Shown: one piece after another, positions 10,850-41,764 of the stretch | Numbering within the stretch: position 1 is the stretch's first letter | Layout: every line of letters begins with the position of its first letter | Assembly (NCBI GenBank): GCA_946482285.1 | Contig: CAMLQK010000001.1 | Coordinates: 124,001-188,000 of the forward strand | DNA from: an uncultured Candidatus Saccharibacteria bacterium | GTDB lineage: Bacteria; Patescibacteria; Saccharimonadia; Saccharimonadales; UBA4665 | Direction: 5' to 3' | DNA: 64,000 bases | The notes under the pieces: model-generated | The model's database searches: none | Told to the model about the DNA's origin: nothing | What the model saw: the letters and a program-made list of their open reading frames with translations, nothing else | Program-made: the position numbers and the translations under genes

Positions 10850-10889
10850 TATACTATCTAATCTGGTTTGACCCAGGAACATTTGGGTT
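10850..10889 (+). promoter_or_regulatory. promoter and leader hairpin of cassette A
   Basis: The minus-ten box TATACT is at 10850-10855, with transcription starting near 10862. A hairpin follows at once: GACCCA at 10870-10875 pairs with TGGGTT at 10884-10889 with a G-U end pair. Confidence 0.5.
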
Positions 10890-10945
10890 CTCTCCAAAAA
10901 AAGCACATCCACAGCAACGCACAGGACAGGCAGGTGAACGCCCAC

Positions 10946-11500
10946 ATGCTGGGATTCCGTAAACTGGACAAGCAGGGTAAGGACCGTCGCTTCCGGTACA
11001 TGACCGGTATCGCCGGCGTCATCATGGCGATCGTTTTCGCTGCCGGCTGCGGTGCCGCGCAGAAGGAAACCCAGGACACGGTCGACAACGCGCGTGACAT
11101 CATCAACGCGATCCCGACCAGCCCGGCGGACGTCCGCGACAAGGTCACCGAACAGCTGCAGACCACCGAGCTGAAGCTCGACAGCACCAGCTGCAAGCTC
11201 AGCAACTCGATCGCCGTCCGCATCAAGACCCTCGGCAACGACTGGCCCGCCGGCCCGTACATGACCATCGCCAACTACAGCGCCACCAAGGACGGCGACT
11301 ACAAGCCCGTTCCGGAGAACCTGTACACCGCGGCCAACCTGGACACCAAGGCCAATCCGGCCGATACCTGGAGCTGGCCCTGCGTGACCCCGCTCGGCAA
11401 GGACAAGGTCGGCTGGTACAAGGTCTACCTCGTCCACTTCGACAAGGCGGGTAAGCCGGACCAGGCCACCAAGACGGCGCAGTTCGAGGTCGTCTCCTGA
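10946..11500 (+). CDS. GC-rich cassette lipoprotein A
   Basis: The 184-residue product has a positively charged start, a hydrophobic segment and a lipobox FAAGC with the acylated Cys at about residue 35, so it should be a lipoprotein on the outer face of the membrane. The remainder is a single small domain with two Cys that could pair, containing GNDWPAGPYMTI and NPADTWSWPC segments. It is homologous to the product of the next cassette (11775-12371). The open frame extends back to a TTG at 10868, but that lies inside the leader hairpin. GTG at 10934 or ATG at 10946 with AGGCAGG upstream are better starts. Codons end mainly in C or G, unlike the GH16 gene before it. Function is unknown. Confidence 0.7.
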   Translation: MLGFRKLDKQGKDRRFRYMTGIAGVIMAIVFAAGCGAAQKETQDTVDNARDIINAIPTSPADVRDKVTEQLQTTELKLDSTSCKLSNSIAVRIKTLGNDWPAGPYMTIANYSATKDGDYKPVPENLYTAANLDTKANPADTWSWPCVTPLGKDKVGWYKVYLVHFDKAGKPDQATKTAQFEVVS

Positions 11501-11523
11501 CGGCCTGACGCAAGCCGCTGAAC

Positions 11524-11646
11524 GGGTGTGGATGTGTTGTTAAGACCTGGCCTCCGCAAGGAGAGCAGGCCAGTGGGTCGCGTCCGCAACGGCATCTGAG
11601 CAGCTGCTCAACCAAGATGCCACCGCGACCGCCCACTGCCACACCC
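11524..11646 (+). ncRNA. 3-prime structured element of cassette A (three-way junction)
   Basis: The closing stem is GGGTGTGG at 11524-11531 with CCACACCC at 11639-11646. Hairpin 1 is CTGGCC at 11547-11552 with GGCCAG at 11568-11573, capped by TCC-GCAA-GGA, a GNRA-type loop. Hairpin 2 is TGGGTCGCG at 11574-11582 with CGCGACCGCCCA at 11624-11635, and contains GGCATCT/AGATGCC and the palindrome GAGCAGCTGCTC. The same architecture follows most other GC-rich genes in the window. It may be a stable 3-prime end of the message or a separate RNA. Confidence 0.65.
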
Positions 11647-11658
11647 CAAGAACCATAT

Positions 11659-11680
11659 ACTCCCAAGTGGGAGTTTTTTT
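11659..11680 (+). terminator. intrinsic terminator of cassette A
   Basis: ACTCCC-AAGT-GGGAGT followed by a run of T lies 12 bases after the structured element, so that element is transcribed with the gene. Confidence 0.85.
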
Positions 11681-11688
11681 ATTACTCA

Positions 11689-11744
11689 TTGCCCAATCTG
11701 TTCATTTAGGATACTATCGAAGCTGGCTTGGAGCATTCCAACCA
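11689..11744 (+). promoter_or_regulatory. promoter and leader hairpin of cassette B
   Basis: TTGCCC at 11689-11694 and TACTAT at 11712-11717 have a 17-base spacer. Start would be near 11724. A hairpin TTGGA-GCAT-TCCAA lies at 11728-11741 within an outer TGG/CCA pair (11724-11744). Confidence 0.55.
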
Positions 11745-11774
11745 TTTCCACATCATCGATCAGAAGGGAATGCT

Positions 11775-12371
11775 GTGCGTCCACATCATCGCACATCTCG
11801 TCTGCTGGCAGCGATCTGTTCGGGCCTGACCATCGCGGCCCTGGCCACCGCCTGCAGCAACACCGGTGACACCGGCCGTCCCAGCGAGGCAAGCAGCAGC
11901 CGTCAGGAAGCCAGCGGGGCACCGGGCAACCAGCACACGCCGCAAGCGTCGGAACCGGCTACGTCCACAACACCAGCCCAGTCCGCGCCTTCGGCGAGCA
12001 GCAAGCCCAGCCCGACGGTCACCGAACTGGTGCGCGATGCCGTGCGGCATGCGAACGAGAACAACAACCTCATCGACATCAGTCTGTCGAACAACTCGAC
12101 GTGCTCCGGCATCGAAATGGTGACCCTCACCAAGCTGCAGGGTGACTGGCAGCCCGGTCCATACGTCGAGCTGAAGGGCTTCAGCAACGAGCCGGGGCTC
12201 ATCGCGCTGGACTCGATGGAGATGCACGAGAATCCTACCGGCAACCCCTACGAACACTGGCACTTCGACTGCAAGGGCAAAAAGCCCGGGCGCTATAGTG
12301 TGCAGTTCATCCGCCTGGATCCGGTGCAGGTCACCGAGTCGGTCACGATCACCGTGGAGCCAGCAGCCTGA
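11775..12371 (+). CDS. GC-rich cassette lipoprotein B
   Basis: The frame is open from 11667, but the promoter lies inside that extension. The GTG at 11775, with AGAAGGGA just upstream, is therefore the likely start and gives 198 residues. A signal peptide ends in a lipobox LATAC with Cys at about residue 27. A low-complexity Ser/Pro/Thr/Ala stretch (about 30-80) acts as a stalk, then comes a globular domain. That domain aligns with lipoprotein A: DWQPGPYVEL corresponds to DWPAGPYMTI, and NPYEHWHFDC to NPADTWSWPC. This suggests duplication of a whole cassette. Codon use is GC-rich. Function is unknown, and it probably sits on the cell surface. Confidence 0.72.
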   Translation: MRPHHRTSRLLAAICSGLTIAALATACSNTGDTGRPSEASSSRQEASGAPGNQHTPQASEPATSTTPAQSAPSASSKPSPTVTELVRDAVRHANENNNLIDISLSNNSTCSGIEMVTLTKLQGDWQPGPYVELKGFSNEPGLIALDSMEMHENPTGNPYEHWHFDCKGKKPGRYSVQFIRLDPVQVTESVTITVEPAA

Positions 12372-12382
12372 GCCCGATCGAC

Positions 12383-12468
12383 GGTGTGGAGTAAAGCCCT
12401 GCCTGCGCAGGCCGGTAAATCATTGGGAGCACTCTGCCTTCCAGAACCCGATGATTTACCGCCACACC
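12383..12468 (+). ncRNA. 3-prime structured element of cassette B
   Basis: The closing stem is GGTGTGG at 12383-12389 with CCACACC at 12462-12468. Hairpin 1 is the palindrome GCCTGCGCAGGC at 12401-12412. Hairpin 2 is GGTAAATCAT at 12414-12423 with ATGATTTACC at 12451-12460, extended by one flanking C-G pair. Its tip contains GCCTTCCAG, like the other copies. Confidence 0.65.
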
Positions 12469-12520
12469 CAAGGAAACACATAAGGGAGAGGTTATATATT
12501 AATCGGATCGAGATCAGTCA

Positions 12521-12648
<128 letters not shown>

Positions 12649-12762
12649 ATGGTATGTGCCAAGTGTACCATACCAACAGAGAAGGGTACAGATGGCTGGT
12701 GAGTAAATTGGACTAGCAATGTTTGTCATAATATGCTAAAATTACCTCTGTTGCAGTAATAA

Positions 12763-12839
12763 GCACCCGTAGCTCAGCTGGATAGAGCGTTGGCTTGCGG
12801 AGCCAAAGGTCGTAGGTTCGAATCCTGCCGGGTGTACCA
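12763..12839 (+). tRNA. tRNA-Arg(GCG)
   Basis: This 77-base tRNA has a G-U first pair in the acceptor stem, the D-arm AGCTCAGCTGGATAGAGC with A20 as in arginine tRNAs, anticodon stem TTGGC/GCCAA and loop TTGCGGA, which gives anticodon GCG. CCA is encoded. Most bacteria read CGU and CGC with an ACG anticodon deaminated to inosine by TadA. A G34 arginine tRNA would not need that step. Confidence 0.93.
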
Positions 12840-12876
12840 AAGAAAATACCTCAGTAAATGCTGAGGTATTTTCTTT
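12839..12876 (+). terminator. terminator after tRNA-Arg
   Basis: AAAGAAAATACCTCAG and CTGAGGTATTTTCTTT form a 16-base stem around TAAATG directly after the tRNA. Confidence 0.85.
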
Positions 12877-12903
12877 GCCTCAATAAACATAATCGGAAAC
12901 ACT

Positions 12904-14187
12904 ATGGCAAACTACAGTCGATATCTCTATGAAGACTACTACAGGGAACCTCGAGAATCAGGCATGGTTGACCAGGAAACACGCGTTATCATAGACACGA
13001 ATGTGGCCCATGATTACGTGTGGCATGGCCGCAGCCTAGAAACACCAGAGGAGGCCACTGAATGGCTCGACACACTCGCTGACGAAAATACTCGTGATGA
13101 ATTCAAAAAAGTTGTTGTCTCGCGAGCACTTGCCGTGACAATATTGAAGCGGTTTGGCCAGATGGATGCAGATTCCGAGACCTCACCAAGCACCCAGCTT
13201 GGCATGTTCCTGAATACCATGCGTCAGCAGGGGACACTAAAGAATCTCACACAAACACTCCTGAAGATCGCGACCCAGGAATTAGGTGTTGGCAATTCCG
13301 AGCTCTACCGCCTCTTCTACCATGCGGACATCGAAATGGAAGCGGAAGATCCAGATGTTAGCCGCTCCGCCCACAACCTCCTGAGTATGATTGATAATGC
13401 AAACGTACCACCAGATACAGAAAGTGTTTTGGCGCATCTGCAGACACCCATCAAAATAGAGGACACTCGCCCCTTGCAAGCAGTAGCCAATCTAACAGGC
13501 AGCCTTGCACAAGAGAACAAGCTACGGTCAGATGTGGCATTACGCAACGCGCTAGCTGGAACATACAACTTATTACGTTTTATTCACGAACAGCGACCTG
13601 ATCATGATCAGCCAAGCAATGCCGGACAAATCCTCCAGACGCTAAAGAGTCACCATGCCCAGGACGCATACGCAGGACTTCGCGATCGCACCGGTCAAGT
13701 GCCGCATATTCCGTATACCGCGTATATCCAACTCGCCAACCGGTTCTCGAAGGCTATAGCTGAGTTAGAAGGAACAGCGGGCAAGCCCGCCGAGATCGCA
13801 AGGCTTGATCAGACTTCTATCGCCGAACTCCCGAAGGCTATCGATCGCATTATTTTTATAGCCTGCTTGGGTAATGTTGCGGCACCCATTGCCCAGAATC
13901 TTGATGTACAAGCCGCTATATCAACCAGTCGGCTCGCAATTGACAATGTTCTACATTTTGGCGTCGAACGAAAGGTGGGAGCAGCACAGCTAACACTACA
14001 AGACGTCATCATCGCACTTCGTACCTATTTGCCACCGGATGAAGCAGCTGCCGCCATTCAACGAATGACGGAAGATGAGGAAAATATACCTAGCAACAGG
14101 GACGCGTTACAGCGTCGCATTAGAGTCGGGAGACAACTTTGGATGGAGCACCAAGTACGGAAGCCAGGTTACGGCAAACTTTCCTAA
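12904..14187 (+). CDS. unknown protein with a PIN-like N-terminal motif
   Basis: I do not recognise this 427-residue soluble protein as a whole. RVIIDTNVAHDY at about 27-38 looks like the first strand and catalytic Asp of a PIN-domain nuclease (hydrophobic strand followed by DTN). The rest is helical and shows no clear further acidic motifs, so a true PIN nuclease cannot be claimed. It starts at the ATG 27 bases after the tRNA-Arg terminator, has native codon use, and ends convergent with the GltS-type gene. Confidence 0.72.
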   Translation: MANYSRYLYEDYYREPRESGMVDQETRVIIDTNVAHDYVWHGRSLETPEEATEWLDTLADENTRDEFKKVVVSRALAVTILKRFGQMDADSETSPSTQLGMFLNTMRQQGTLKNLTQTLLKIATQELGVGNSELYRLFYHADIEMEAEDPDVSRSAHNLLSMIDNANVPPDTESVLAHLQTPIKIEDTRPLQAVANLTGSLAQENKLRSDVALRNALAGTYNLLRFIHEQRPDHDQPSNAGQILQTLKSHHAQDAYAGLRDRTGQVPHIPYTAYIQLANRFSKAIAELEGTAGKPAEIARLDQTSIAELPKAIDRIIFIACLGNVAAPIAQNLDVQAAISTSRLAIDNVLHFGVERKVGAAQLTLQDVIIALRTYLPPDEAAAAIQRMTEDEENIPSNRDALQRRIRVGRQLWMEHQVRKPGYGKLS

Positions 14188-14320
14188 CGGCGACATATTG
14201 CTACAATAAGCCCCGACAAGAGCACGAAGAGCAGCTCTTCCCGGTGCCAACGTCAAACAGTTTTGGCGGGTTTTATGAGCCAGACCCTGCAGCGACCGAG
14301 GCGCTGGCGAAGCGTCTTCG

Positions 14321-15691
14321 CTAAACCGTGGTGCGGTGTTGTCGTTGAGCCTTACGCTTCAGGTGCAGACCCAATAGCAACCAAAAGAGGGTAATAGCCG
14401 TGGTAGCGATCAGAATTGGAACCTGGCCGAATTCAAACAAGAATATAACCGCGCTCGCCGTAACAATACCACCACCCATAAATGGCTCGAATACGAGCTG
14501 CTTGTACGCAAAGCTTTCGCGAGCATGAGAGTGGTTATTGGGATCAGCCAATCGGCCCAACAAAAGGCCTGTAGCTGTCATTCCCATTGATTGACCCATG
14601 TTTGTCAAGCCTTTCTCAAACCAGTAGCTCGGGAACATACGCGGTGCTAAAACGAGGAACCCAAATACAATCCAAACTGCTCCCGCCAAGCCTAATGTGA
14701 TAATAACGGGCAAATTATCGCCAATAGCCTGTAGGGATATAGTTGCAATCGCACTGGCTATGAGGATATCGAGCGCAATTGTACTAATAATTTCTGCTGT
14801 GCGTCGCTGGATGAGCGTTTGTTTGCCAAGTTTACGCAGGAACATTTGCACAAAAAGACCTCCGAGCATAGCCAGAGGGAAGAGTGGCAAGTATGGAAAG
14901 AAGCGAAGGTCGGTGAATGGGGTGAGCACTACATCTTCAGCGAAAACCAAGCCCTTCTGCAAAAGCCAGCCAATCCCTATTGCGACTAAGAACGCTACAA
15001 TATTGATGCCGATCGCCTTGGGATCAGTATTAATTTTCCGACCGAGCGTAATAAGATTGTAGCCGCTGCGAATCATCTGTTTACGCTGACGATCTTGAGT
15101 TTCGGGATCAACGAAGTGGCCACCGCCTTTGCGATTGTGCCAATTTACGAACAGTACGCCCAGTAGGATAGCTCCTACAATGCTAAAAGTGGCAAGCGTC
15201 AACGCAATATCAGTTCCTGCAGCCCACCCAAGCTTTTCAAATGTTGGAGCCAGACCAGCAGAAGTACCGTGACCGCCCTCAAAGCTTACTTCTATAAGCG
15301 CGCCTGTCAGTGGATTAGCCCCAAATAATGGCCCAAGGAAAAACAGGGTAAGGGCGATACCTAACACATACTGACCCCACGCCAGTGTATTGCCAAACGC
15401 AATTTGCGGGCCAGCCATATGCCAGATCTCTTTCCTGCTAGGAATAACTTTGCCCAGGAATAAACCAGCAAAGACAATGGTAATGAGATACTCTGGCCAT
15501 TCGCTCCAGGTATCAACAACATCTGCAGGAATAGAACTGAGTACTTGTGGTCCGACTAGCAGGCCGATGAGTCCAGCGACAAGAGCACTCGGTATAAACA
15601 GCTTCTGCAATACTATGGAGCCACGCTTAATAAAACGGGCAATTGCAACGATAATTGCGAGTACGATAAGACTTTCAAAAAAATGATACAT
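14321..15691 (-). CDS. gltS: GltS-type sodium:glutamate symporter family protein
   Basis: The 456-residue polytopic membrane protein has about ten to twelve hydrophobic segments. The IPSALVAGLIGLLVGP and FEGGHGTSAGLAPTFEKLGW segments match the signature regions of the GltS glutamate transporter family. GltS imports glutamate with sodium, which would suit an organism that takes up amino acids from a host. The central loop at about 185-220 is long and charged. The last residues are basic (HLKRKAQRQHR). Substrate specificity is inferred from family resemblance only. Confidence 0.85.
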   Translation of the reverse strand: MYHFFESLIVLAIIVAIARFIKRGSIVLQKLFIPSALVAGLIGLLVGPQVLSSIPADVVDTWSEWPEYLITIVFAGLFLGKVIPSRKEIWHMAGPQIAFGNTLAWGQYVLGIALTLFFLGPLFGANPLTGALIEVSFEGGHGTSAGLAPTFEKLGWAAGTDIALTLATFSIVGAILLGVLFVNWHNRKGGGHFVDPETQDRQRKQMIRSGYNLITLGRKINTDPKAIGINIVAFLVAIGIGWLLQKGLVFAEDVVLTPFTDLRFFPYLPLFPLAMLGGLFVQMFLRKLGKQTLIQRRTAEIISTIALDILIASAIATISLQAIGDNLPVIITLGLAGAVWIVFGFLVLAPRMFPSYWFEKGLTNMGQSMGMTATGLLLGRLADPNNHSHARESFAYKQLVFEPFMGGGIVTASAVIFLFEFGQVPILIATTAITLFWLLLGLHLKRKAQRQHRTTV

Positions 15692-15719
15692 ACGTTATGG
15701 GCAAACAGTGTTTTTATTT

Positions 15720-16370
15720 TTAGAGCCTGATACGGCGCATCATTCGGTCAATCAGGTCGTGGGAGGCGGGCGCAAAGGGCAGGTATGCTGAAAGTGCCTC
15801 TACTACGTCGTCTTCGTTTTCAGGCGGATAATAGATAGTGAGTGTTGGCATAAAGCGGCGCATGGGCATAAAAACGATGCTTGAAAAAGCACCTTCGTCT
15901 ACTACGCCGAACGACTTGAATTCGCTATAGGGGTAAAATTTTTTATCTATGGTGAGTCCACCAGTATCGACATGGTAGTTCAGCACGCGGGGTTTGTGTG
16001 CCCCAAGCACTCCGAAAAGCATCGCCACAAAGGCCAGTGCAATAACCGCTACTACATCTTTGGTTAGTAGATACACAATGGCAACAACCAAAAATGTGCA
16101 GGCGCCCAGCGCAACATACCACAGAGGTGATTTTTCATGGGCGATAAATTCAGAAGCGCTCCATGTAACTTCAGGACCACGCAACACTTCGGGTTGGGGG
16201 ACTGCCGGCGCAACGGGCGCCGCAACTTCAGCGGCAGGCGCAACAGCTTCGGCACCTTTAGAAAAGTCAGCCGTTGGCGGCTGTTGTTGGATATCTGTTT
16301 TAGGGGTATCAGAATCAGGCTTAAACTGCCAGTTACCCCCATCCGGTGCTTGTGGTGTCTCACCATTCAT
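15720..16370 (-). CDS. membrane protein with Pro/Ala-rich N-terminus and two membrane segments
   Basis: The frame opens at 16448, but the promoter at 16380-16409 makes the ATG at 16370 the likely start, giving 216 residues. Residues 1-68 are polar and then Ala/Pro-rich. Two adjacent membrane segments lie at about 82-102 and 105-124. The C-terminal cytoplasmic domain has strands and PMRRFMPTLTIYY. It resembles small PH-like membrane proteins found widely in Patescibacteria, but I cannot assign a function. Confidence 0.7.
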   Translation of the reverse strand: MNGETPQAPDGGNWQFKPDSDTPKTDIQQQPPTADFSKGAEAVAPAAEVAAPVAPAVPQPEVLRGPEVTWSASEFIAHEKSPLWYVALGACTFLVVAIVYLLTKDVVAVIALAFVAMLFGVLGAHKPRVLNYHVDTGGLTIDKKFYPYSEFKSFGVVDEGAFSSIVFMPMRRFMPTLTIYYPPENEDDVVEALSAYLPFAPASHDLIDRMMRRIRL

Positions 16371-16379
16371 ACTATGGTT

Positions 16380-16409
16380 ATTGTACAACGACCCGTAACA
16401 TAAGCGCAA
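16380..16409 (-). promoter_or_regulatory. promoter giving a nearly leaderless message
   Basis: On the minus strand, TTGCGC and TACAAT are separated by 18 bases, and the expected start is only two or three bases upstream of the ATG at 16370. Confidence 0.5.
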
Positions 16410-16480
16410 AGGGATTTTGGAGGGGAAGGCAGTTATTGACGATACCATTTTATTTCATCCCCAAAATACCGAGGAGAAAC

Positions 16481-16510
16481 TAAAAAGGCTAGCATGCGCT
16501 AGCCTTTTTA
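16481..16510. terminator. terminator after tRNA-Ser(GCT)
   Basis: TAAAAAGGCTAGC and its exact complement surround ATGC. The hairpin can act in both directions. Confidence 0.85.
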
Positions 16511-16513
16511 GTT

Positions 16514-16606
16514 TGGCGGAGAGAGAGGGATTCGAACCCTCGCGGGAGCTCGCGCCCCCCTAACGATTTAGCAAACCGTCCCCTTCAGCCACTTGGGTAC
16601 CTCTCC
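16514..16606 (-). tRNA. tRNA-Ser(GCT)
   Basis: A class II tRNA of 93 bases with acceptor GGAGAGG/CCTCTCC, anticodon loop TTGCTAA (anticodon GCT, codons AGU/AGC), a very GC-rich long variable arm and encoded CCA. Confidence 0.95.
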
Positions 16607-16747
16607 TTAACTGAAGTCTTAACTATTTTAACAGGTTAACTAGTGTTTTACCAGAGCCATAGAAACAATTCTAAAGAGAATGGGTTCATACATTCGGAAG
16701 ATCATGGGCAACTGGCTTGCTATTGGGTGTCACATCATACTAACAAA

Positions 16748-16779
16748 TATAAAAAGACCACAGTAGTGGCCTTTTTATA
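16748..16779. terminator. terminator after tRNA-Ser(TGA)
   Basis: TATAAAAAG and CTTTTTATA flank CCAC-AGTA-GTGG, with one opposed A/C. The hairpin is nearly symmetric and can work on both strands. Confidence 0.8.
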
Positions 16780-16780
16780 C

Positions 16781-16870
16781 TGGCGGAAGGGGTGGGATTC
16801 GAACCCACGGTACCGTTGCCGGCACGACGGTTTTCAAGACCGTTTCCTTAAACCGCTCGGACACCCTTCC
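16781..16870 (-). tRNA. tRNA-Ser(TGA)
   Basis: A class II tRNA of 90 bases with acceptor GGAAGGG/CCCTTCC, anticodon loop CTTGAAA (anticodon TGA, codon UCA), a long variable arm similar to the CGA tRNA, and encoded CCA. Confidence 0.95.
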
Positions 16871-16913
16871 AATAACAGAGGTAATTATAGCAGCTTTGGG
16901 CCGCTGTCGCAAG

Positions 16914-17579: not shown

Positions 17580-17616
17580 GTTGTCATTATTGTGTTGTAA
17601 ATATGAGTCATTGTGG

Positions 17617-17646
17617 TTGAAAGGTGTAACATACCTAAGCTATACT
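17617..17646 (+). promoter_or_regulatory. promoter of the Hsp20 gene
   Basis: TTGAAA at 17617-17622 and TATACT at 17641-17646 are 18 bases apart. No CIRCE-type inverted repeat is seen. Confidence 0.55.
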
Positions 17647-17705
17647 GCTAATAACACAAAAACGCAAGACTATCGTATAAATAATTACTTTGGAGGGTAA
17701 CAACT

Positions 17706-18194: not shown

Positions 18195-18214
18195 GGATTG
18201 TGCAATCTACATCA

Positions 18215-18242
18215 AACCACCGCTCAAAGCGGTGGTTTTTTC
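18215..18242 (+). terminator. terminator of the Hsp20 gene
   Basis: AACCACCGCT-CAA-AGCGGTGGTT is followed by a T-run. Confidence 0.9.
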
Positions 18243-18276
18243 TGTACCACATGCAGGGAGGTACAGGCAGTAATAA

Positions 18277-18302
18277 AAAACCGCTCTTGTAAGAGCGGTT
18301 TT
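18277..18302. terminator. terminator of the pilin array
   Basis: AAAACCGCTCTT-GT-AAGAGCGGTTTT lies just beyond the last minus-strand pilin gene and is nearly symmetric, so it can stop transcription from both sides. Confidence 0.85.
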
Positions 18303-18321
18303 AGTTTTCGTAGACTAAGGG

Positions 18322-20782: not shown

Positions 20783-20843
20783 TTGATTTCTTTTAACGCC
20801 GATTATATAGTATACGTGAGTGTACTCATACATAGGGAGTCAC
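20783..20843 (+). promoter_or_regulatory. promoter and leader hairpin of cassette C
   Basis: TTGATT at 20783-20788 and TATAGT at 20806-20811 have a 17-base spacer. The leader can form GAGT-GT-ACTC at 20818-20827 or an outer GTGA/TCAC pair (20816-20819 with 20840-20843). Confidence 0.5.
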
Positions 20844-21367: not shown

Positions 21368-21389
21368 CCCAAGCCGGACAACCGTACCA

Positions 21390-21452
21390 GTGCCGTGGCG
21401 GCGGGAACAGTGTGGCCTTCCAGCCATTCAAACCCCGCCGCCGCACACGCAC
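21390..21452 (+). ncRNA. 3-prime structured element of cassette C (single long hairpin)
   Basis: GTGGCGGCGGG at 21395-21405 pairs with CCCGCCGCC/GCAC at 21434-21446 with a small bulge. An outer GTGC/GCAC pair lies at 21390-21393 and 21449-21452. The tip contains GGCCTTCCAGCC, matching the other elements. No separate hairpin 1 is seen, so this copy is simpler. Confidence 0.55.
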
Positions 21453-21547
21453 CACTCATATATAGTAGGCAGCGATTTGTGTTTTTGATTATTCAGATTT
21501 GCGTTGCTGTGCTATAGTTCATGGTGAGGCCTATAAAAGGCAAATAT

Positions 21548-34794: not shown

Positions 34795-34812
34795 AGCAGA
34801 TCCATCCCAGCG

Positions 34813-34841
34813 AAAAAGGGTCAATCTATCTGGCCCTTTTT
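34813..34841 (+). terminator. terminator of the secretion operon
   Basis: AAAAAGGG and CCCTTTTT surround 13 bases. The T-run overlaps the minus-35 element of the next cassette promoter. Confidence 0.8.
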
Positions 34842-34912
34842 GCCTATGTACATAATAAATGGTATAATATACACAACAGTTCGACCCCTAGGAGGTCTTT
34901 TTTAAAAACTGT
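34840..34912 (+). promoter_or_regulatory. promoter and attenuator-like leader of the lipase cassette
   Basis: TTGCCT at 34840-34845 and TATAAT at 34863-34868 have a 17-base spacer. The leader has an outer stem ACAGTT (34876-34881) with AACTGT (34907-34912) enclosing a small hairpin GACC/GGTC (34883-34897) followed by six T. This nested plan recurs before the 39365 gene. Confidence 0.65.
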
Positions 34913-34957
34913 AGTACTTCAACAGACCATCGCACACTCCATGAAGGGATTTTGGTA

Positions 34958-35428
34958 ATGGCAACGCGCCTTACCCGGCGAGGGAAGTTCCTCGCAATTG
35001 TGGCTGGCCTTTTGGCACTTGTGGCACTCGTGATCGTCGGAATCAATATGTTCGACGAGGACGACAGCAAGTCAACCAAGCATGGCCAAACACAATCCAA
35101 CCCCCAGCGCAATGACATTCCGCCGCTGAGTTCTCAGCGAGCCAGCGAACTGGAGAGGCTGCTGAGCAGCAATCGCGCCCGGGAACAGGCAGCCGCCTGG
35201 CCCGTGCCGATGCGTGACGATGTCACTGCGGCCATCAAGGACCAGGTCAGCTACAAATTCCTCCACGACACCTTCAATAATAAGGTGGGCGGGAAGGAGA
35301 GTGTCAGCGGTGCCGTATCGGCCACAGCCGATGGCAGTCCCTGCACGATCAGCCTGGTCTACATCGAGAACGACAACACCACGAAGCCTGATGGCACGTG
35401 GTTCGTCTGGAAGATTGAGGTGAACTAG
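34958..35428 (+). CDS. GC-rich cassette membrane-anchored protein, unknown
   Basis: The ATG at 34958 with GAAGGGA upstream is better than the TTG at 34952. The 156 residues have a basic start, one membrane segment at about 12-30, an acidic and then polar linker, and an extracytoplasmic domain ending in TWFVWKIEVN. It has one Cys. The stop touches the ATG of the lipase-like gene, so the two are coupled. Codon use is GC-rich. Confidence 0.7.
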   Translation: MATRLTRRGKFLAIVAGLLALVALVIVGINMFDEDDSKSTKHGQTQSNPQRNDIPPLSSQRASELERLLSSNRAREQAAAWPVPMRDDVTAAIKDQVSYKFLHDTFNNKVGGKESVSGAVSATADGSPCTISLVYIENDNTTKPDGTWFVWKIEVN

Positions 35429-37258
35429 ATGTTCCGCACGCGTTACCTGGTAACGCCGGTAGCAGCCCTGGCGTTGGTCAGCGGCATCTCCGGCACCAGT
35501 CAGCCCGCACAGGCCGTTCCGGCAGCCATCAAAGACTGCACGGAGCCCAAGGGGCTGGGCAATAAAACACCGGTAATCCTGGTGCACGGCCTGTTCAGCA
35601 AGGGTGACTCCTGGAAGGGCGGCGGCGAAGCTTCAATGTACGCCACGCTCAAGAAGATGTCCGGCGTTTACGTCGAGGTCTTCGACTACAAAGACACCAA
35701 CACGGCGTGGGTGACGTCCGACAACATCGGGCCGAGGCTCTCCCGCAGGATTGCCTGCCTGGCGGCGCACTCCCGCGACAACAAGGGGCTCGGTAAGGTC
35801 ATCGGCGTCGGCCACTCCATGGGCGGCCGCGCGCTGGAATTCGCTTCCGGTGAGACGGTGAACAACCGTAAAACATCGGAAGACCTGGCGCACATCGTAA
35901 CCATCGGCACGCCATACCAGGGCAGCCTTGGTGGCAACGCCATGGAAAGCATCCTGTACGCCATGTGCAACCCGGTAGCGCCGGTGGGTAAGGTCGCCAA
36001 GTCCATCCCCAAGCACGGGCCGTGCAACAACGAAGACGGCTTCACGGCGTTCAGCGGACTCGGCAAGTACTCGGAGGAAGGCAAGAAACTCCCGGACTTC
36101 CCGAAGAGTCTGCCCGTCCAGGCCATCGCCGGCGACGTCACGCTCCAGTCTCAACTGGTAAAGACGCCGTTCGACTGGCATACCAATAGCGACCTCGTGG
36201 TCGGTGTTGGCTCCGCCTTCGACAACGAGACCTACAAGCAGGAGGGAATCCTGGTGAAGTGCCACGAGCACATCATCACGCGACCCGACTGCTGGCACTC
36301 GGCGCTCACCAGCAACGAGAAGGTCAAGCAGGCCGTCGTCGACACAGTGTCGAAGTACGTCACCAAGACACTCTCGGCCGAACAGCTGAACCTGAAGGTG
36401 CCGCTTAACTGGACCACCGGCAATGTATTTGGTGGACACGGCAAGGGCGTTACAGGTGTCAAGACCGGCAGCTGCATCAAGCGCGAGTTCGCCACCGACT
36501 GTCAGGGCTTCGAGGTTCACGGCCCCCAGGCCATCAGCTACGGCGCAGGTCCATCTGTCGAGTACACCGGCAGCTACATGTGGACGTACAGCTCCGGCAC
36601 CGTTGGCTGCCCCGAAAACCGGGACGAATACCCGGCAGAGGGTGACGCCAAGAAGCTGAAGCAGTACGACACCACCGTGGGTGGCAGAAAGGCCGTGTTT
36701 GCCGAGTGGCAGACGACCTGCTTCGTAAAGGACAGCTACAAACCGGGTATCAAGCATATTCAGCGCACCTGGTGGGTGCCCAGCCTCAAAACCCTCGTCG
36801 TCGACGAGTGGAAAACTAACGGGCTGGACAAGATTCTCCGCGATGCCACCTGGTCGACACCCGACCTCAGCAACACTGGCTTTGTCGGCGAGTGGCGCGT
36901 CCACACCGAAACCATGACAATCTCCAAGGATGGTCTAGGCCTGGACAGCTGGAATTACGGCTCGTGCGACTCAACCAGCACCACCATGTGCCGGGGCCAC
37001 GCTACTATCCGCTTCAAGCAGACAGGTGACGGGCTCAAAGGCACAGTCCTCTCGGTCTACTACCGTGATGATGAGGGCAACGAACACGCTGTGGAGTACT
37101 TCGATTCGGGACCCCAAGTTGGCGACACCCTGTTCCTGAAGCGTCACGAAACTGGCGTCATCAAGCGCAACACGTCGGACACAGAGGGAGGCAACCCCTA
37201 CCTCTGCAGTCAGCAGGCGAGCAGCAAGTGGCTCACAGAGTGCAATACTGGTTTCTGA
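35429..37258 (+). CDS. secreted alpha/beta-hydrolase (lipase/esterase-like) with a C-terminal domain
   Basis: The 609-residue protein has a signal peptide ending near AQA. The hydrolase domain starts with VILVHGLFSKGDSW (oxyanion loop) and has the nucleophile elbow GHSMGG. NSDLVVG and CWHSAL probably supply the Asp and His of a Ser-Asp-His triad. At least ten Cys suggest disulfides. From about residue 490, WRVHTETMTISKDG starts a C-terminal domain that is also found at the end of the 39365 product and resembles domains of actinobacterial secreted proteins. It would cleave lipid or ester bonds outside the cell, and the substrate is unknown. Codon use is strongly GC-rich. Confidence 0.85.
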   Translation: MFRTRYLVTPVAALALVSGISGTSQPAQAVPAAIKDCTEPKGLGNKTPVILVHGLFSKGDSWKGGGEASMYATLKKMSGVYVEVFDYKDTNTAWVTSDNIGPRLSRRIACLAAHSRDNKGLGKVIGVGHSMGGRALEFASGETVNNRKTSEDLAHIVTIGTPYQGSLGGNAMESILYAMCNPVAPVGKVAKSIPKHGPCNNEDGFTAFSGLGKYSEEGKKLPDFPKSLPVQAIAGDVTLQSQLVKTPFDWHTNSDLVVGVGSAFDNETYKQEGILVKCHEHIITRPDCWHSALTSNEKVKQAVVDTVSKYVTKTLSAEQLNLKVPLNWTTGNVFGGHGKGVTGVKTGSCIKREFATDCQGFEVHGPQAISYGAGPSVEYTGSYMWTYSSGTVGCPENRDEYPAEGDAKKLKQYDTTVGGRKAVFAEWQTTCFVKDSYKPGIKHIQRTWWVPSLKTLVVDEWKTNGLDKILRDATWSTPDLSNTGFVGEWRVHTETMTISKDGLGLDSWNYGSCDSTSTTMCRGHATIRFKQTGDGLKGTVLSVYYRDDEGNEHAVEYFDSGPQVGDTLFLKRHETGVIKRNTSDTEGGNPYLCSQQASSKWLTECNTGF

Positions 37259-37262
37259 TGAA

Positions 37263-37388
37263 GTGCGATAAGGCCGCACAGTAACGCCGAACGCGTGAAA
37301 GCAGGCCTGCGGCGGGAGCGGAGCAAGAGGTAACAGAGGGCATCCAGCCTTCCTATACTCTACAGCTCCGCTCCCGCCGTTACCGCAC
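37263..37388 (+). ncRNA. 3-prime structured element of the lipase cassette
   Basis: The closing stem is GTGCG at 37263-37267 with CGCAC at 37384-37388. Hairpin 1 is AGGCC at 37271-37275 with GGCCT at 37304-37308. Hairpin 2 is a perfect 15-base stem, CGGCGGGAGCGGAGC at 37310-37324 with 37365-37379. Its loop carries GGCATCCAGCC at about 37339-37349. No T-run terminator follows. Confidence 0.75.
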
Positions 37389-37436
37389 CATTTGTACGTG
37401 ATATATTTCACCTCTGTTAGCAGGTGGCGTATACTA

Positions 37437-37535
37437 TTTACAAAAACAAGCAAAAGTGGTATAATTATATATGTGCATCACTAAGAGTTTTTTAGTGTTT
37501 CTTATCCTAAGACTGCAATCCAGCAGGCACTGCAC
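37437..37535 (+). promoter_or_regulatory. promoter and nested hairpin leader before the 37551 gene
   Basis: TTTACA at 37437-37442 and TATAAT at 37460-37465 have a 17-base spacer and closely match the 39365 promoter over the whole core. The leader hairpin CACTAA (37479-37484) with TTAGTG (37492-37497) is enclosed by GTGCA (37473-37477) with TGCAC (37531-37535). Confidence 0.6.
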
Positions 37536-37550
37536 CTACCAAGGAGAATC

Positions 37551-38198
37551 ATGACCCGCAAAGCACGGATCAAGCGCAAGCTGCAGAGTAAGCTCGGCTC
37601 GCGCAAGGTAAGGGTAGTGGGGCTCGTTCTGGCCGCCGTCATGCTGTTGAGTGGCATCGGCTACATCGTGGTCGACTACATCGGCAACAAAGACGAGACC
37701 TCGTCGAGCGCACCCACAGGTCCCAACCAGGACAACGTCGAAAAGGTGGAGATCACCCGCCCCGAAAAGGGAACCGACGGCCTGCCCGACCCGACGCTGC
37801 TCATCGACGACAAGTACCTGTCGATGGAGCTGTCCGACAACGGCACGTACGCCAAGGGCGAGCGCGCCAAGAAGGTTGCGTACGACGGTGAGGCCCGCGC
37901 GGTGTACACCAGCGATGCTGGCAACACAGTGACGCTCTCCGTCATCAAGGACAGCGACAAGAAGGCCTGGGACGATCTGCGCAAGCACCACCCGGACGCC
38001 ATCGACACCGGCACCAACGTCGAGAACTTCGACGACGCCTGGTGGATCGTCGACTCCGACCTGATCCTGCGCCGTGACAGCCTGACCATCTGGCTGCAGT
38101 TCAGCTTCGCTGACCGCGACCAGGCCATGGGCGTCGCCCTGGTCATCGGCACCAACCTCCAGGGTCTCGCCGACCGCGAAAGTGTCGAGAACCAGTAG
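37551..38198 (+). CDS. GC-rich cassette membrane-anchored protein, unknown
   Basis: The 215 residues have a strongly basic start, one membrane segment at about 22-43 and an extracytoplasmic mixed domain (LLIDDKYLSMELSD, WWIVDSDLILRRDSL). It has no Cys. AAGGAG precedes the ATG. The gene lies 29 bases upstream of the DUF3558-like lipoprotein gene in one cassette. Function is unknown. Confidence 0.75.
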   Translation: MTRKARIKRKLQSKLGSRKVRVVGLVLAAVMLLSGIGYIVVDYIGNKDETSSSAPTGPNQDNVEKVEITRPEKGTDGLPDPTLLIDDKYLSMELSDNGTYAKGERAKKVAYDGEARAVYTSDAGNTVTLSVIKDSDKKAWDDLRKHHPDAIDTGTNVENFDDAWWIVDSDLILRRDSLTIWLQFSFADRDQAMGVALVIGTNLQGLADRESVENQ

Positions 38199-38227
38199 CC
38201 CATTCCCACAAGGAAAGCAGGACGACT

Positions 38228-39061
38228 ATGTCTGCCCAGCGACTCACCCGAATGACGGCAGCTACACTGCTCAGTCTCCTGGCGTTCTTCGCCAGCGCCT
38301 GTAGCAGCAGCCCGCAGCCTGCTGGCAATGCCCATGAGGCATCCGCACCCGCGGATCTGGCCACCGCCGAGGCAGCTGCGTCGCCGACCGAGACGGAAAC
38401 GTCTTCGCCCGAAGCGTCGCCAACGCCTTCCCACACCCCGGACCTGTCCAGCCTGGACATCAAGGGCGATGTGCCGAACCCCTGCAAACTGCTGTCCGCC
38501 GACGAGTTCGAACTCGCCACCGGTAGCGCCCTGAAGGACACCGAGTCCAACACCAAGAAGCAGGACAACGGCTACCGCGAGTGCCGATTCCAGCCCTATG
38601 GGCACGACAAAACCGCCTACCTGACGGTGATGGCCGTGCGCGAGGGTCCGATGGACGCCAGCAGTTCCGAGTCCGGCGCCACGATGAACTGGAGCGACAG
38701 CTTCCGAAACGTCGAGGGCTACTCGGGCAATACCAGCGCCAACGACAAGCTCTGCATGGAGTCGAACGACCTCAGCGAGACCATGGACGGTATCGGTTGT
38801 CTGACCATCGTGCTCAATCCCGACAAGGATCTGAGGACGGATGCAGCCACCACCACCGGCCACATCGCCCACACCTGGCTGCGCTACAACCAGCGCCCTG
38901 GCGAGGAGTTCACGGCTATCGGGTTCGTTACCGATGAGACCGCCTACCAGCCCAGCCTGGTCATCGCCGTGCTTTTGCCCCCGGGCAAGCACAGCAAGGA
39001 CCGACTTCTGGACATCGCGGGCTCCATGGCCAACACCCTCCAGGGCCAGCTCCACAAGTAG
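38228..39061 (+). CDS. GC-rich cassette lipoprotein resembling DUF3558
   Basis: The 277 residues have a signal peptide with the lipobox FASAC (Cys near 25), a Ser/Pro/Glu-rich stalk to about 75, and a domain starting NPCKLLSADEFELATG. That start, with four Cys in the domain, resembles DUF3558 lipoproteins, which are known mainly from Actinobacteria. It would sit on the outer face of the membrane. The resemblance is from memory of the family pattern and would need a profile search. Confidence 0.78.
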   Translation: MSAQRLTRMTAATLLSLLAFFASACSSSPQPAGNAHEASAPADLATAEAAASPTETETSSPEASPTPSHTPDLSSLDIKGDVPNPCKLLSADEFELATGSALKDTESNTKKQDNGYRECRFQPYGHDKTAYLTVMAVREGPMDASSSESGATMNWSDSFRNVEGYSGNTSANDKLCMESNDLSETMDGIGCLTIVLNPDKDLRTDAATTTGHIAHTWLRYNQRPGEEFTAIGFVTDETAYQPSLVIAVLLPPGKHSKDRLLDIAGSMANTLQGQLHK

Positions 39062-39187
39062 GTGCCACCGGCATCGTCAACTGTGCTCTAAGCACAACAC
39101 CTGACGACGCCAGCGGTGGGACAGAAACAGATGATCTCCACGGCATCCCGCCTGGAATTCACCCTCGATCTGCTCCCACCGCCGCAC
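39062..39187 (+). ncRNA. 3-prime structured element after the DUF3558-like gene
   Basis: The closing stem GTGC/GCAC is at 39062-39065 and 39184-39187 and extends one pair into the stop codon. Hairpin 1 is nested: GGC/GCC, CGTC/GACG and GTGCT-CTA-AGCAC between 39070 and 39111. Hairpin 2 is GCGGTGGG at 39113-39120 with CCCACCGC at 39175-39182. Its tip holds GGCATCCCGCC. Confidence 0.7.
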
Positions 39188-39233
39188 CACTTTTGTACAT
39201 ATCAGCGCCAGCGAGCCATCGCTGCTAGTGATA

Positions 39234-39306
39234 TTTACAAAAACAAGTAAAAATGTTATAATTAATGTACAGTTTCTCCTTACATAGGGAGGTTTTTTAA
39301 TACTGT
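39234..39306 (+). promoter_or_regulatory. promoter and attenuator-like leader before the 39365 gene
   Basis: TTTACA at 39234-39239 and TATAAT at 39257-39262 have a 17-base spacer. ACAGT at 39269-39273 pairs with ACTGT at 39302-39306 around the hairpin CTCC (39276-39279) with GGAG (39288-39291), which is followed by six T. The sequence after it (ACTGTAGCACCTCGACA) nearly matches the 34907-34923 leader. Confidence 0.65.
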
Positions 39307-39364
39307 AGCACCTCGACATAATCATCCGCACAATCCGCAAGACACCCCAACAGAGGAGTAGATC

Positions 39365-41116
39365 GTGGCAACACGAAACACCGCTCGGCGGTGGCCCATG
39401 GTCCTGTTGGCCTTCGTCATCGTCCTGGCGCTTATCGTCGTCGGCGCATGGCAACTCCAGGGTCAATACGGTATTCCGTACTTCGGTGGTAACACCGAGA
39501 AGATCCAGGGCAAGGTCATCGGCAGCGACGACAGCGGTGCCAAGATCACGGCAACCAGCCAGGCCGCTCCACGCGACCTGCAAGCCGAACCCGCAAAAGT
39601 TCCGGCCAGGCTGCTGCCTCCAATGAGCCCCTTCGATGGCAGCAAGCCGCACAAGTGGCACATCACCAGTATCGAGCCCAGCGGCAAGCTGAAGGCTCCA
39701 CTGCAGGTGACGCTGCCGCTCGACCACCCGGTCCGCAAGGGAGAATTCGTACACATCGCGGTCAACCACAGCCACACGGCTGACGGCTGGGACCTGGCGG
39801 ACCTCAACAAGGTTCAGCAGCCCAAGGTCGGCGACAAGAGCGTGACGTTCACCGTTAACAAGCTGTCGTGGTTCGCACCGTTCTTCTCGGACATCGGCAA
39901 CATGGTGAGCGAGCTGAAAACCCAGTTCATCGACGGCATGACCAGCAACGTCTTCGCCAACGCGAAGCAGCCGGAGTGCGCCAACGAGGACGCTGCCCGC
40001 GAAGAGAACCACCAGTTCAACTCGTCCGGCAAGGACGCCATCCTGTGGTGCGCCGGCAAGGAGAAGATCAAGGGTCAGTGGCAGCGGGTCATCAAGATGA
40101 CAAACAACCGCACCGCCCCCGAGATCATCGACCCGTCATGGCTCAAGATCCACAGCCGCGGCAAGGCCGATCTCAACCTGTCGCAGATCCTGAATCAAGG
40201 CGACAAGGTGGTTCTGAACGGTACGGACACGGCTGTTTTCTATTTTGGCGAGCTGAAGCTCGACCAGAACGTGACGGTAACCGCTGACACCAGCATGGAG
40301 GCTCTGGGCCTGCAGGCGGTGGACCTGATCGCCAAGACGATCATCAGCATCGTACTGAAGACCGACGCCAACGCCGCCATCGACAAAACCGCCAAAGTCA
40401 AGGAACTCGTCAACGAGATCCTGCACCAGCGTGACTGCGTGGGCGCCCTGGGTGACATCACCAACATCGGCAACTTCATCAAGGAGTGCTTCACAACCAA
40501 GATCTTCCAGATCGCCTTCGACGGCAAGTGGTGGACAACTCTTCTGGTTCCGGTGATGACGGCGTTCAGCTTCATCAGCCTGGGCAAGGGAGTCGTCGAG
40601 ACCATCCGTGATCTCGGCAACGGCCGGGCCAAGTACTCCGTTACGGCATCGCGGCCCAAGCCAGACCCGTACAAGCCGTTCGCAGCCAACGACTGGGGAC
40701 GACACTTGTCGCGCCTGATCATCAACCGCGACGGCAGCGGCTTTCACCGCATCAGCACTGGAGCGGGCGGCGCCGAAGGATGTGGCACGGGGGACAATTA
40801 CTGCGCCTTCAATGCCAACTTCAAGGCTACGCCCAACAGCGACGGCAGCCTGACAGCCACCTACACCAAGGTGTGGTACGAGTTCGGCGACGGCCAGATC
40901 GTTCCGCTGCCGTCCAGCTTCGAGGACACCATGCCCAAGGTCGGTGACTCCATCCAGATCAAGCTGTTCGAGGGTGAGACCGTACTCACGCAACAGCAAG
41001 GAAGTCTGGCGCAGTACGACATGGACATCGAGCTCGATGACGGTCGCACGTTCCGCGGATTCGTGTGGTGCGGACCCAACTCGTTCGGCACCCCCGGACA
41101 GTACTGCGGCGCATGA
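39365..41116 (+). CDS. GC-rich cassette membrane-anchored protein of 583 residues
   Basis: The GTG start follows AGAGGAG. A basic start and one membrane segment at about 11-29 are followed by a long extracytoplasmic region. At about 85-175 a beta domain (KAPLQVTLPLDHPV, VTFTVNKLSWFAPFF) resembles Ig-like modules of actinobacterial secreted proteins. At about 305-430 are hydrophobic helices. The last 145 residues (WGRHLSRLIINRDGSG, VGDSIQIKLFE, C-terminal CGPNSFG) share a domain with the lipase-like protein. Function is unknown. Confidence 0.75.
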   Translation: MATRNTARRWPMVLLAFVIVLALIVVGAWQLQGQYGIPYFGGNTEKIQGKVIGSDDSGAKITATSQAAPRDLQAEPAKVPARLLPPMSPFDGSKPHKWHITSIEPSGKLKAPLQVTLPLDHPVRKGEFVHIAVNHSHTADGWDLADLNKVQQPKVGDKSVTFTVNKLSWFAPFFSDIGNMVSELKTQFIDGMTSNVFANAKQPECANEDAAREENHQFNSSGKDAILWCAGKEKIKGQWQRVIKMTNNRTAPEIIDPSWLKIHSRGKADLNLSQILNQGDKVVLNGTDTAVFYFGELKLDQNVTVTADTSMEALGLQAVDLIAKTIISIVLKTDANAAIDKTAKVKELVNEILHQRDCVGALGDITNIGNFIKECFTTKIFQIAFDGKWWTTLLVPVMTAFSFISLGKGVVETIRDLGNGRAKYSVTASRPKPDPYKPFAANDWGRHLSRLIINRDGSGFHRISTGAGGAEGCGTGDNYCAFNANFKATPNSDGSLTATYTKVWYEFGDGQIVPLPSSFEDTMPKVGDSIQIKLFEGETVLTQQQGSLAQYDMDIELDDGRTFRGFVWCGPNSFGTPGQYCGA

Positions 41117-41123
41117 CACCGAG

Positions 41124-41241
41124 GTGCGGCAAGGCCATATGACGTCTTCGTGATGTGAACTGGCCTGCGGCGGGACGGGGAAGAGAGACTGATGGTATCC
41201 AGCCATCCACCTTCATCTTCTTCGTTCCGCCGTTACCGCAC
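41124..41241 (+). ncRNA. 3-prime structured element after the 39365 gene
   Basis: The closing stem is GTGCGG at 41124-41129 with CCGCAC at 41236-41241. Hairpin 1 is AGGCCA at 41132-41137 with TGGCCT at 41161-41166. Hairpin 2 is a 17-pair stem from 41168-41184 with 41216-41232 that needs three G-U pairs, then GATGG/CCATC, with GGTATCCAGCC at the tip. The G-U pairs favour an RNA structure over a DNA one. It closely matches the element at 37263. Confidence 0.75.
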
Positions 41242-41289
41242 ACTGATTTTGCATAGCTTTTACCCAGTACAGCAGGTATTGCGTGAAAA

Positions 41290-41356
41290 TTGTACAAAAT
41301 AACTAAATATGATATAAATACATCAGCAGTGAGCCCTGGCGCTCTTCAATCTGCTG
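41290..41356 (+). promoter_or_regulatory. promoter and nested hairpin leader before the 41399 gene
   Basis: TTGTAC at 41290-41295 and TATAAA at 41313-41318 have a 17-base spacer. CAGCAG at 41324-41329 pairs with CTGCTG at 41351-41356 around GAGC (41331-41334) with GCTC (41341-41344). Confidence 0.6.
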
Positions 41357-41398
41357 TCCTTCAGTCAGATCAGATCTCGGAAAGGCGCGTTCAGCACC

Positions 41399-41593
41399 TT
41401 GTTTTTCAAGCGTAAGAAACCCCCCACGCCACGCAACGGCATTTACTTCGGTGACCGCAATGAGCCGACTCCCCTCGGCATGCGGGTGTCGCTCGTGGCA
41501 ATTTCGGCAGTCGTTCTGGTAATCTGCTACCGGCAGGACACTATTGACGCCGAAACTCTTAAGGCTATCGTCAGCTCGCTGACCAGCTTCTAG
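41399..41593 (+). CDS. small cassette membrane protein
   Basis: The 64 residues start at a TTG, with AAAGG upstream at a somewhat long distance. A basic start (FKRKKPPTPR) and one membrane segment at about 29-45 are followed by a short helical tail. Its promoter, leader and 3-prime element match the cassette plan, which is the main reason to accept so short a gene. It has no recognised family. An in-frame ATG at codon 28 is a possible alternative start. Confidence 0.5.
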   Translation: MFFKRKKPPTPRNGIYFGDRNEPTPLGMRVSLVAISAVVLVICYRQDTIDAETLKAIVSSLTSF

Positions 41594-41654
41594 CACAGGA
41601 AACACCATAAAAACGCCTCTTATTCTGTACGAAACCTGATCCAACCGAAGCTAT

Positions 41655-41737
41655 GGGCCACTAGCACTCCGGTGCCACGGCTCGCGGAGCGGGACTAACG
41701 GCATAAGCCATCTACACAATAGTCCCGCTCCGCACCC
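41655..41737 (+). ncRNA. 3-prime structured element after the small cassette gene
   Basis: Hairpin 1 is GCC/GGC (41657-41659 with 41679-41681) enclosing GCAC-TCCG-GTGC, where C(UCCG)G is a UNCG-type tetraloop. Hairpin 2 is a perfect 14-base stem, GCGGAGCGGGACTA at 41684-41697 with 41720-41733, with GGCATAAGCC in its loop. The closing stem is short (GGG/CCC). Confidence 0.65.
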
Positions 41738-41764
41738 AAACACCCATATAGAGGTGTTTTTTAT
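41738..41764. terminator. terminator between the cassette array and recF
   Basis: AAACACC and GGTGTTT surround eight bases and are followed by a T-run. The hairpin can also serve the minus-strand recF. Confidence 0.8.

Follow-up and report, generated by a model that had tools for sequence, protein, structure and literature searches.

A repeated unit of GC-rich genes with folded 3' elements around the secretion operon and origin of a Saccharibacterium

Described systems and the locus

Integrons carry gene cassettes in tandem, each closed by a folded attC element that is kept in shape, and repetitive extragenic palindromic sequences and bacterial interspersed mosaic elements (REP/BIME; cf. PMC12306157) are GC-rich imperfect palindromes 3' of genes. 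Intrinsic terminators also place a GC-rich hairpin after the stop codon, horizontally acquired genomic islets are extra segments with outlying composition and rare proteins, and polymorphic toxins or surface proteins with exchangeable C-terminal modules keep a constant N-terminal part while the C-terminal domain is swapped at a fixed junction. A locus that recalls these systems lies in a 64,000-base stretch from an uncultured Candidatus Saccharibacteria bacterium (GenBank assembly GCA_946482285.1, contig CAMLQK010000001.1, positions 124,001 to 188,000; hereafter the window), whose VirB4-like ATPase, in the best segment, gives matches of 81-92% to GTDB Saccharibacteria. The window contains seven units, each composed of a promoter (P), a leader, one or two GC-rich genes (C; nine open reading frames, ORFs, in all) and a folded 3' element (E).

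The units differ from integron cassettes in that each has its own promoter and that they also occur at two other loci besides the main array. The attC boxes GTTRRRY and RYYYAAC are absent from E2-E7 on either strand, and E1 has one internal fitting site, presumably by chance; the elements do share with attC an imperfect hairpin with unpaired bases. No integron integrase was noticed among the window ORFs that were read, no profile search having been made. Compared with REP/BIME, which form many near-identical copies, the elements are longer (67-128 bases) and mostly three-way junctions; the 64 kb of the window show seven copies, of which only E4-E6 align well (74%). Unlike intrinsic terminators, E1, E2 and E4-E6 have no scored T-run behind them (E3 lay outside the scan); separate ordinary terminators follow E1 and E7, the latter as a distinct stem behind the element. 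The main array is absent at the syntenic place in relatives, as expected of an islet, and the gap at the C3 place was seen in two loci, whereas the occurrence of one transcription-unit plan at three places and a native amino-acid composition are not islet-like.

We tentatively read the locus as a set of self-contained surface-protein units gained from other, higher-GC Saccharibacteria, in which the 3' element would end and protect the mRNA and recombination would replace whole units or the ends of C6.

The 3' elements

All seven units follow the order that a sequence-only reading of this DNA had proposed, one or two genes and then an element; C4a and C5a are first genes of pairs and have no 3' element of their own. 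E1-E7 start 0-61 bases past the stop codons and fold with z scores of -5.16 to -8.22, none of 200 dinucleotide shuffles of each being as good. The linkers from an element to the next promoter measure 47, 45 and 47 bases, and 42 after E1. An outer stem, a side hairpin and a long hairpin form a three-way junction in E1, E2, E4, E5 and E6 and in E8, an element of a second saccharibacterial genome, G403. The outer stem is of the type GGTGYGG/CCRCACC, with variants in E4, E5 and E8, and the tip of the long hairpin reads GGC or GGT, a loop of 4-6 bases and GCC in E3-E8 (six of the eight elements), those of E1 and E2 being different. Sequence has drifted in the arms, but the outer stem is retained and so, often, is the tip.

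Kinship of the elements had been made to depend on whether they align or covary. E3-E8 do so: the proportion of paired cells is 96.5%, and two-sided changes occur at 15 of 24 pairs, compared with 42-49% and 0-5 in slid controls, in an alignment that was hand-fitted to the fold, with E1 and E2 left out, and is accordingly biased toward structure. E1 and E2 are linked to the others by shape only, with no sequence alignment. The long hairpins of E4, E5 and E6 (74% mean column identity) stand behind genes that are unrelated or 25% alike over 118 residues. Rfam covariance models at gathering scores gave four tRNA matches in the window and none to the elements, and no match even at E≤1 in 37200-41800.

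A possible, though rather unlikely, alternative is that the elements are just local extragenic palindromes or unusual terminators not tied to any class of genes, in which case the GC-rich islands and the hairpins would be two separate facts. Strong 3' hairpins do follow ordinary genes. In the first 500 kb of G001 (CP025011, the nearest complete relative by VirB4), 31 of 443 ORFs have a 3' fold of z -4 or lower behind them, as do 50 of 533 in stretches of G403; of the folds listed, many belong to plain terminators or, in G001, to a different family of palindromes. Ordinary strong 3' hairpins are also present behind three native genes of the window (17706, 18322 and 9389) and, in relatives, behind many genes, which disposes of the claim that native genes lack all marks of the unit. 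In G403, strong-3'-fold ORFs are enriched for anchored or secreted genes (18/50 vs 79/483, p 0.0013); G001 (p 0.24) and the window (p 0.39) show no such enrichment. Two observations speak for a connection: E8 follows a C6 homologue in another species, and the six best plus-strand sites in a directed scan of the window (a CRCAYY tail paired 58-135 bases upstream, minimum free energy -42 or lower) are E4, E6, E5, E1, E2 and E3. The scan returned 16 sites in the window and 33 in four shuffled windows; its seventh plus-strand site, at -52.1, is close to E3 at -53.6, and E7, which has no outer stem, escaped it.

Promoters and leaders

A spacer of 17 bases, the ordinary sigma-70 spacing, had been noted for six of the seven promoters. 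It can be drawn for all seven with hand-chosen hexamers (in general TTG/TTT..-17-TA...(T/A)), and a blind consensus scan recovers three of six: P4-P6 are found and P7 is missed in 34.7-41.8 kb (3/4), and neither P1 nor P2 is recovered in 10.7-12.7 kb (0/2). The rule is true, yet partly a matter of hexamer choice. P5 and P6 are 91% alike over 33 bases, though C5a and C6 are unrelated. The P4 and P6 leaders, compared by eye, share a shape and some sequence. The repeated plan as such exists, has partial counterparts in G403 and includes an array without counterpart at the same place in relatives; the hairpin leader as one of its marks fails by folding energy.

Composition and origin of the unit genes

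GC at third codon positions (GC3) is 0.70-0.91 in the nine unit ORFs and 0.42-0.59 in 24 native genes of the window, which bears out the GC-rich third positions seen earlier. When the window is reduced to its longest non-overlapping ORFs of at least 90 aa, the only one outside the units with GC3 above 0.62 is antisense to C5. The 904 ORFs of G001 longer than 200 aa have a GC3 of 0.526 ± 0.059. The share of glycine, alanine, arginine and proline (GARP) is 26.8% in the units, 26.0% in native genes, 27.2% in G001 and 29.1% in G403, compared with 33.6-38.1% in three high-GC plasmid stretches (Streptomyces 38.1, Rhodococcus 35.6, these two references being 14 and 18 ORFs, one plasmid stretch each); fewer than 1 in 10,000 nine-gene resamplings of these stretches are as GARP-poor as the units. 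The 15 G403 ORFs with GC3 of 0.78 or more have a GARP of 26.2%. High synonymous GC paired with a native amino-acid composition is unusual and wants explaining, and it speaks against a high-GC donor or a recent capture from the host.

Direct capture of actinobacterial host genes by natural transformation, with promoters supplied locally, is an unlikely explanation, although several matches point that way. C5b resembles DUF3558 (E 1.3e-6; 28.9 bits, under the Pfam gathering score of 34.1), and the family model gives a match in Corynebacterium glutamicum, one of 14 control genomes, and none in 148 relatives of G403. C4b is 28% identical over 323 columns to a Streptomyces plasmid hydrolase. Just as C4a precedes C4b, a small ORF for a membrane-anchored protein precedes that hydrolase gene and overlaps it, but this small ORF has no measurable similarity to C4a (E 0.96). 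Since C5b and C4b have actinobacterial relatives, an old actinobacterial root is likely for some unit proteins. The unit codon table also correlates best with the Streptomyces plasmid stretch (0.978), followed by Rhodococcus (0.941), G403 (0.887), Sinorhizobium (0.859) and native genes (0.549), a likeness to high-GC references that is mostly GC3. When third-base weights are refitted, Streptomyces (-0.907), G403 (-0.925), Rhodococcus (-0.927) and native genes (-0.933) become nearly equal, and the five tables other than Sinorhizobium differ by no more than 0.027 nats per codon (2,345 codons), with Streptomyces keeping the best fit. The GARP values are not actinobacterial. Furthermore, amelioration is expected to act faster on synonymous sites than on amino acids, and the units show the reverse, which disfavours recent capture. 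Eight of the nine unit proteins have no plasmid or phage match (actinobacterial chromosome sets were outside this search), and no named donor appears among the database, plasmid or phage matches.

It is distinctly unlikely that the units are native genes under strong expression selection, with the synonymous GC reflecting translational selection in highly expressed surface genes. The native amino-acid composition and the near-consensus P5 and P6 would agree with this, as would the raised GC3 of EF-Tu in G001 (0.65 vs a mean of 0.526) and of virB4, which at 0.59 is the highest of the 24 native genes. On the other hand, no G001 ORF longer than 150 aa, EF-Tu included, has a GC3 above 0.70; the presumed highly expressed set of G001 favours GAA and CAA where the units favour GAG and CAG, and its codon shift correlates with that of the units at 0.55, compared with 0.96 for actinobacteria, the G001 set being 12 ORFs and impure. 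In addition, the array has no counterpart beside recF in relatives.

Position beside recF and partial recurrence in a second genome

In the window 13,100 bases separate the virB4 end from the recF stop, or 6,131 if the array of about 7 kb is taken out. Out of 215 related loci 80 were fetched, and 56 of these hold virB4 and recF in the same layout; their distances are 12-9,016 bases (median 5,774), shorter than in the window in 56 of 56, with 0-5 ORFs of at least 100 aa in the interval. A tblastn search at E≤1e-3 found no cassette protein in any of the 80 loci, and one at E 0.01 found none of the nine unit proteins in G001. The main array looks like an insertion beside recF, without counterpart at the same place in relatives. 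At the C3 place, gaps of 85 and 117 bases were read by eye in two relatives, compared with 806 in the window. The array sits near the origin, in the region of the type IV secretion system (T4SS) operon, which has been proposed to bring in DNA or other macromolecules from the host (PMC12102498).

Three tRNA-Ser genes and one tRNA-Arg gene lie at 12559-12839 and 16514-16870, two of them just behind unit C2. Neighbourhoods of tRNA genes are usual integration places.

C6 relatives number 0 in 392 genomes of the class, 1 in 148 relatives of G001 and 1, the same one, in 93 genomes of the family of G403; the three samples overlap. This homologue, 22% identical to C6, adjoins recF in G403 on the other flank from the array of the window; E8, a full three-way junction, comes behind it. 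G403 also encodes an anchored protease (Trypsin_2, 34.9 bits, cut-off 27.6), the strongest actinobacterium-like codon outlier of 395 ORFs (GC3 0.85, z 3.8). Its flanks can be read by eye as the unit plan: a TTGATA-17-TATAAT promoter, then a hairpin in the leader, then a fold at the 3' end. Two more G403 genes, at loci L174 and L157, have in part a promoter, leader and 3' hairpin of the unit kind.

Putative exported proteins and exchange of C6 ends

Judged by eye from signal, lipobox or anchor, eight of the nine unit ORFs look exported or anchored, C3 being the exception, and the possibility raised earlier, that the unit marks host-interaction genes, is plausible for these eight. The C-terminal part of C1 is similar to C2 (E 0.001). 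C4b stays below the cut-offs of the Pfam alpha/beta hydrolase models (best 20.3 bits with a cut-off of 22, and 19.2 with 20.3), and an HSMGG motif, which we take to be an alpha/beta hydrolase mark, is invariant in the seven aligned sequences. The three unit proteins that were searched in a database of 5.8 billion proteins are rare there: C4b has 7 sequences, C6 has 11 and C5b has 1, counts that take in self or a 99% copy; for C4b and C6 only the candidates sharing most words were scored.

The clearest sign of recombination is an exchange of modules in the C6 family, where the N-terminal 436 residues and the last ~140 differ in history. P0009 and P0010 are identical through residue 439 and then 20% alike; P0011 and P0012 share 71% in the N-terminal part and then 26%; and P0010 and P0018 share 38% in the N-terminal part and then 50%. 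The break falls at an RPK(P/A)xP motif that is kept in all 11 rows of the alignment, and CGA closes all 11 sequences. P0009 or P0010 could be an assembly chimera, but several pairs show mismatched histories. The C-terminal domain of C4b is a distant form of that of C6 (25% over 118 residues, E 9e-5). The family is a clear case of C-terminal module exchange, and this exchange suggests that the unit borders, too, may be recombination borders.

It would be a long shot to go further and regard the locus as part of a module-exchange system of Saccharibacteria, in which the outer C-terminal domain of surface proteins is swapped by recombination whose limits are the conserved codons of the RPK(P/A)xP junction on one side and the folded 3' element on the other. 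If true, such a system would give the parasite a quick change of binding specificity, with the element acting both as DNA and at the mRNA end.

Directly before C1, at 9389-10786, lies a gene of native GC3 (0.57) with a ricin-B lectin domain, a weak GH16 match and an N-terminal anchor (by eye).

Proposed origin and function of the units

According to the tentatively preferred reading, this Saccharibacterium or its lineage would have acquired the seven units, mostly encoding exported surface proteins, from higher-GC Saccharibacteria and retained them around the secretion operon and the origin. Uptake may have occurred by transformation; natural transformation has served for genetic work in Saccharibacteria (PMC10633639). 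Each unit would then bring its own sigma-70 promoter, leader and structured 3' end. REP sequences are held to guard mRNA 3' ends. The most likely role of the 3' element is to end and protect the message: acting in the mRNA, it would block 3'-to-5' decay and mark the end of the message, giving an insulated and long-lived transcript. Recombination between conserved ends could replace units, and the C-terminal domain within C6.

Several observations weigh against this reading. By folding energy the hairpins of the leaders do not stand out from shuffled sequence (z -1.05 to +0.73). Among the searched Saccharibacteria, relatives in a second genome were found for C6 only, plus weakly for C4b (2/195 genomes), the search for the other seven proteins having covered the 80 loci, G001 and about half of G403, and for C5b also its family model. 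In G403 itself the C6 homologue is not a clear composition outlier (z 1.23), nor are the other unit-like genes, the protease excepted; the 3' junction of the protease was drawn by eye with one outer-stem mismatch, and the computed fold pairs its tail elsewhere. Even set against G403, the GARP of the units is a little low (p 0.04). Six of the eight elements fold better on the opposite strand, so that either strand may be the acting one and an action at the RNA level is a prediction. Finally, a covariance model built from the elements is too weak for genome searches and missed even E8, so that a spread of the plan past G403 is conjecture.

That the units are instead integron-like mobile cassettes, cut and pasted at an element that serves as a folded single-stranded DNA recombination site, is very improbable: the inverted ends, the imperfect hairpins kept in shape more than in sequence, the likeness of E4-E6 behind different genes, the tandem array with even linkers, the better fold of the opposite strand and the exchange of C6 ends would all suit it, but attC boxes and a noticed integrase are missing as described above, every unit has its own promoter, C4b, C5b and the C6 family were not found in viral contigs and eight of the proteins were not found on plasmids or phages.

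A class of rare, exchangeable surface-protein units, recognizable by 3' element and composition, would offer a search handle for host-range genes, which would help to learn how epibiotic Saccharibacteria, a group with few cultures, choose and keep their hosts.

Feature coordinates and further hairpins

Table 1. Parts of the seven units in window coordinates; z refers to the fold compared with shuffles.
Feature	Position	Strand	Description	Basis
P1 promoter	10829..10857	+	TTGCTT-17-TACTAT; overlaps T-run of the preceding gene's terminator	read from sequence; missed by blind scan
C1	10946..11500	+	184 aa, lipoprotein-like (lipobox by eye), GC3 0.91	
E1 3' element	11524..11646	+	three-way junction, z -5.9; ordinary terminator after it at 11659-11674	
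P2 promoter	11689..11717	+	TTGCCC-17-TACTAT	missed by blind scan
C2	11775..12371	+	198 aa, lipoprotein-like (by eye), GC3 0.80	
E2 3' element	12383..12468	+	three-way junction, z -5.5	
P3 promoter	20783..20811	+	TTGATT-17-TATAGT	chosen by eye; outside blind-scan stretches
C3	20909..21367	+	152 aa, export signal not obvious, GC3 0.70	
E3 3' element	21387..21453	+	short form without side hairpin, z -5.2	
P4 promoter	34840..34868	+	TTGCCT-17-TATAAT; leader up to 34951	blind scan and reading
C4a	34952..35428	+	158 aa, membrane-anchored (by eye), GC3 0.74; stop abuts C4b start	
C4b	35429..37258	+	609 aa, putative secreted alpha/beta-hydrolase-like protein; C-terminal domain distantly akin to that of C6; GC3 0.80	
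E4 3' element	37262..37389	+	three-way junction, z -8.2	
P5 promoter	37437..37465	+	TTTACA-17-TATAAT	blind scan and reading
C5a	37551..38198	+	215 aa, membrane-anchored (by eye), GC3 0.88	
C5b	38228..39061	+	277 aa, lipoprotein-like, sub-threshold DUF3558 match, GC3 0.83	
E5 3' element	39062..39188	+	three-way junction, z -7.2	
P6 promoter	39234..39262	+	TTTACA-17-TATAAT	blind scan and reading
C6	39365..41116	+	583 aa, membrane-anchored; conserved 1-436, exchangeable C-terminal domain ending CGA; GC3 0.83	
E6 3' element	41123..41242	+	three-way junction (folded as 41123-41241), z -7.6	
P7 promoter	41290..41318	+	TTGTAC-17-TATAAA	missed by blind scan
C7	41399..41593	+	64 aa, one hydrophobic segment, GC3 0.71; weakest gene call	
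E7 3' element	41655..41737	+	long hairpin and side hairpin, without outer stem, z -8.0; ordinary terminator at 41738-41759	

Other hairpins occur outside the units. Between 17706 and 18322, which are convergent genes, two strong terminator-like hairpins stand back to back at 18195-18321 and fold on either strand at a z of about -7, and one long GC-rich hairpin of 14 pairs with a 39-base loop is found in the origin region at 46185-46251. In the palindrome family of G001 (loci L175-L247) a core of about 47 bases occurs 33 times, always inside inverted arms whose outer sequence is site-specific. No palindrome with such arms was found in the window, the G403 stretches or the 80 loci. In G001 the arms have at least 12 perfect pairs in 31 of the 33 copies, and up to 33; one of these 31 lies within an ORF of at least 100 aa, and the core looks like a mobile palindrome with site-specific arms.

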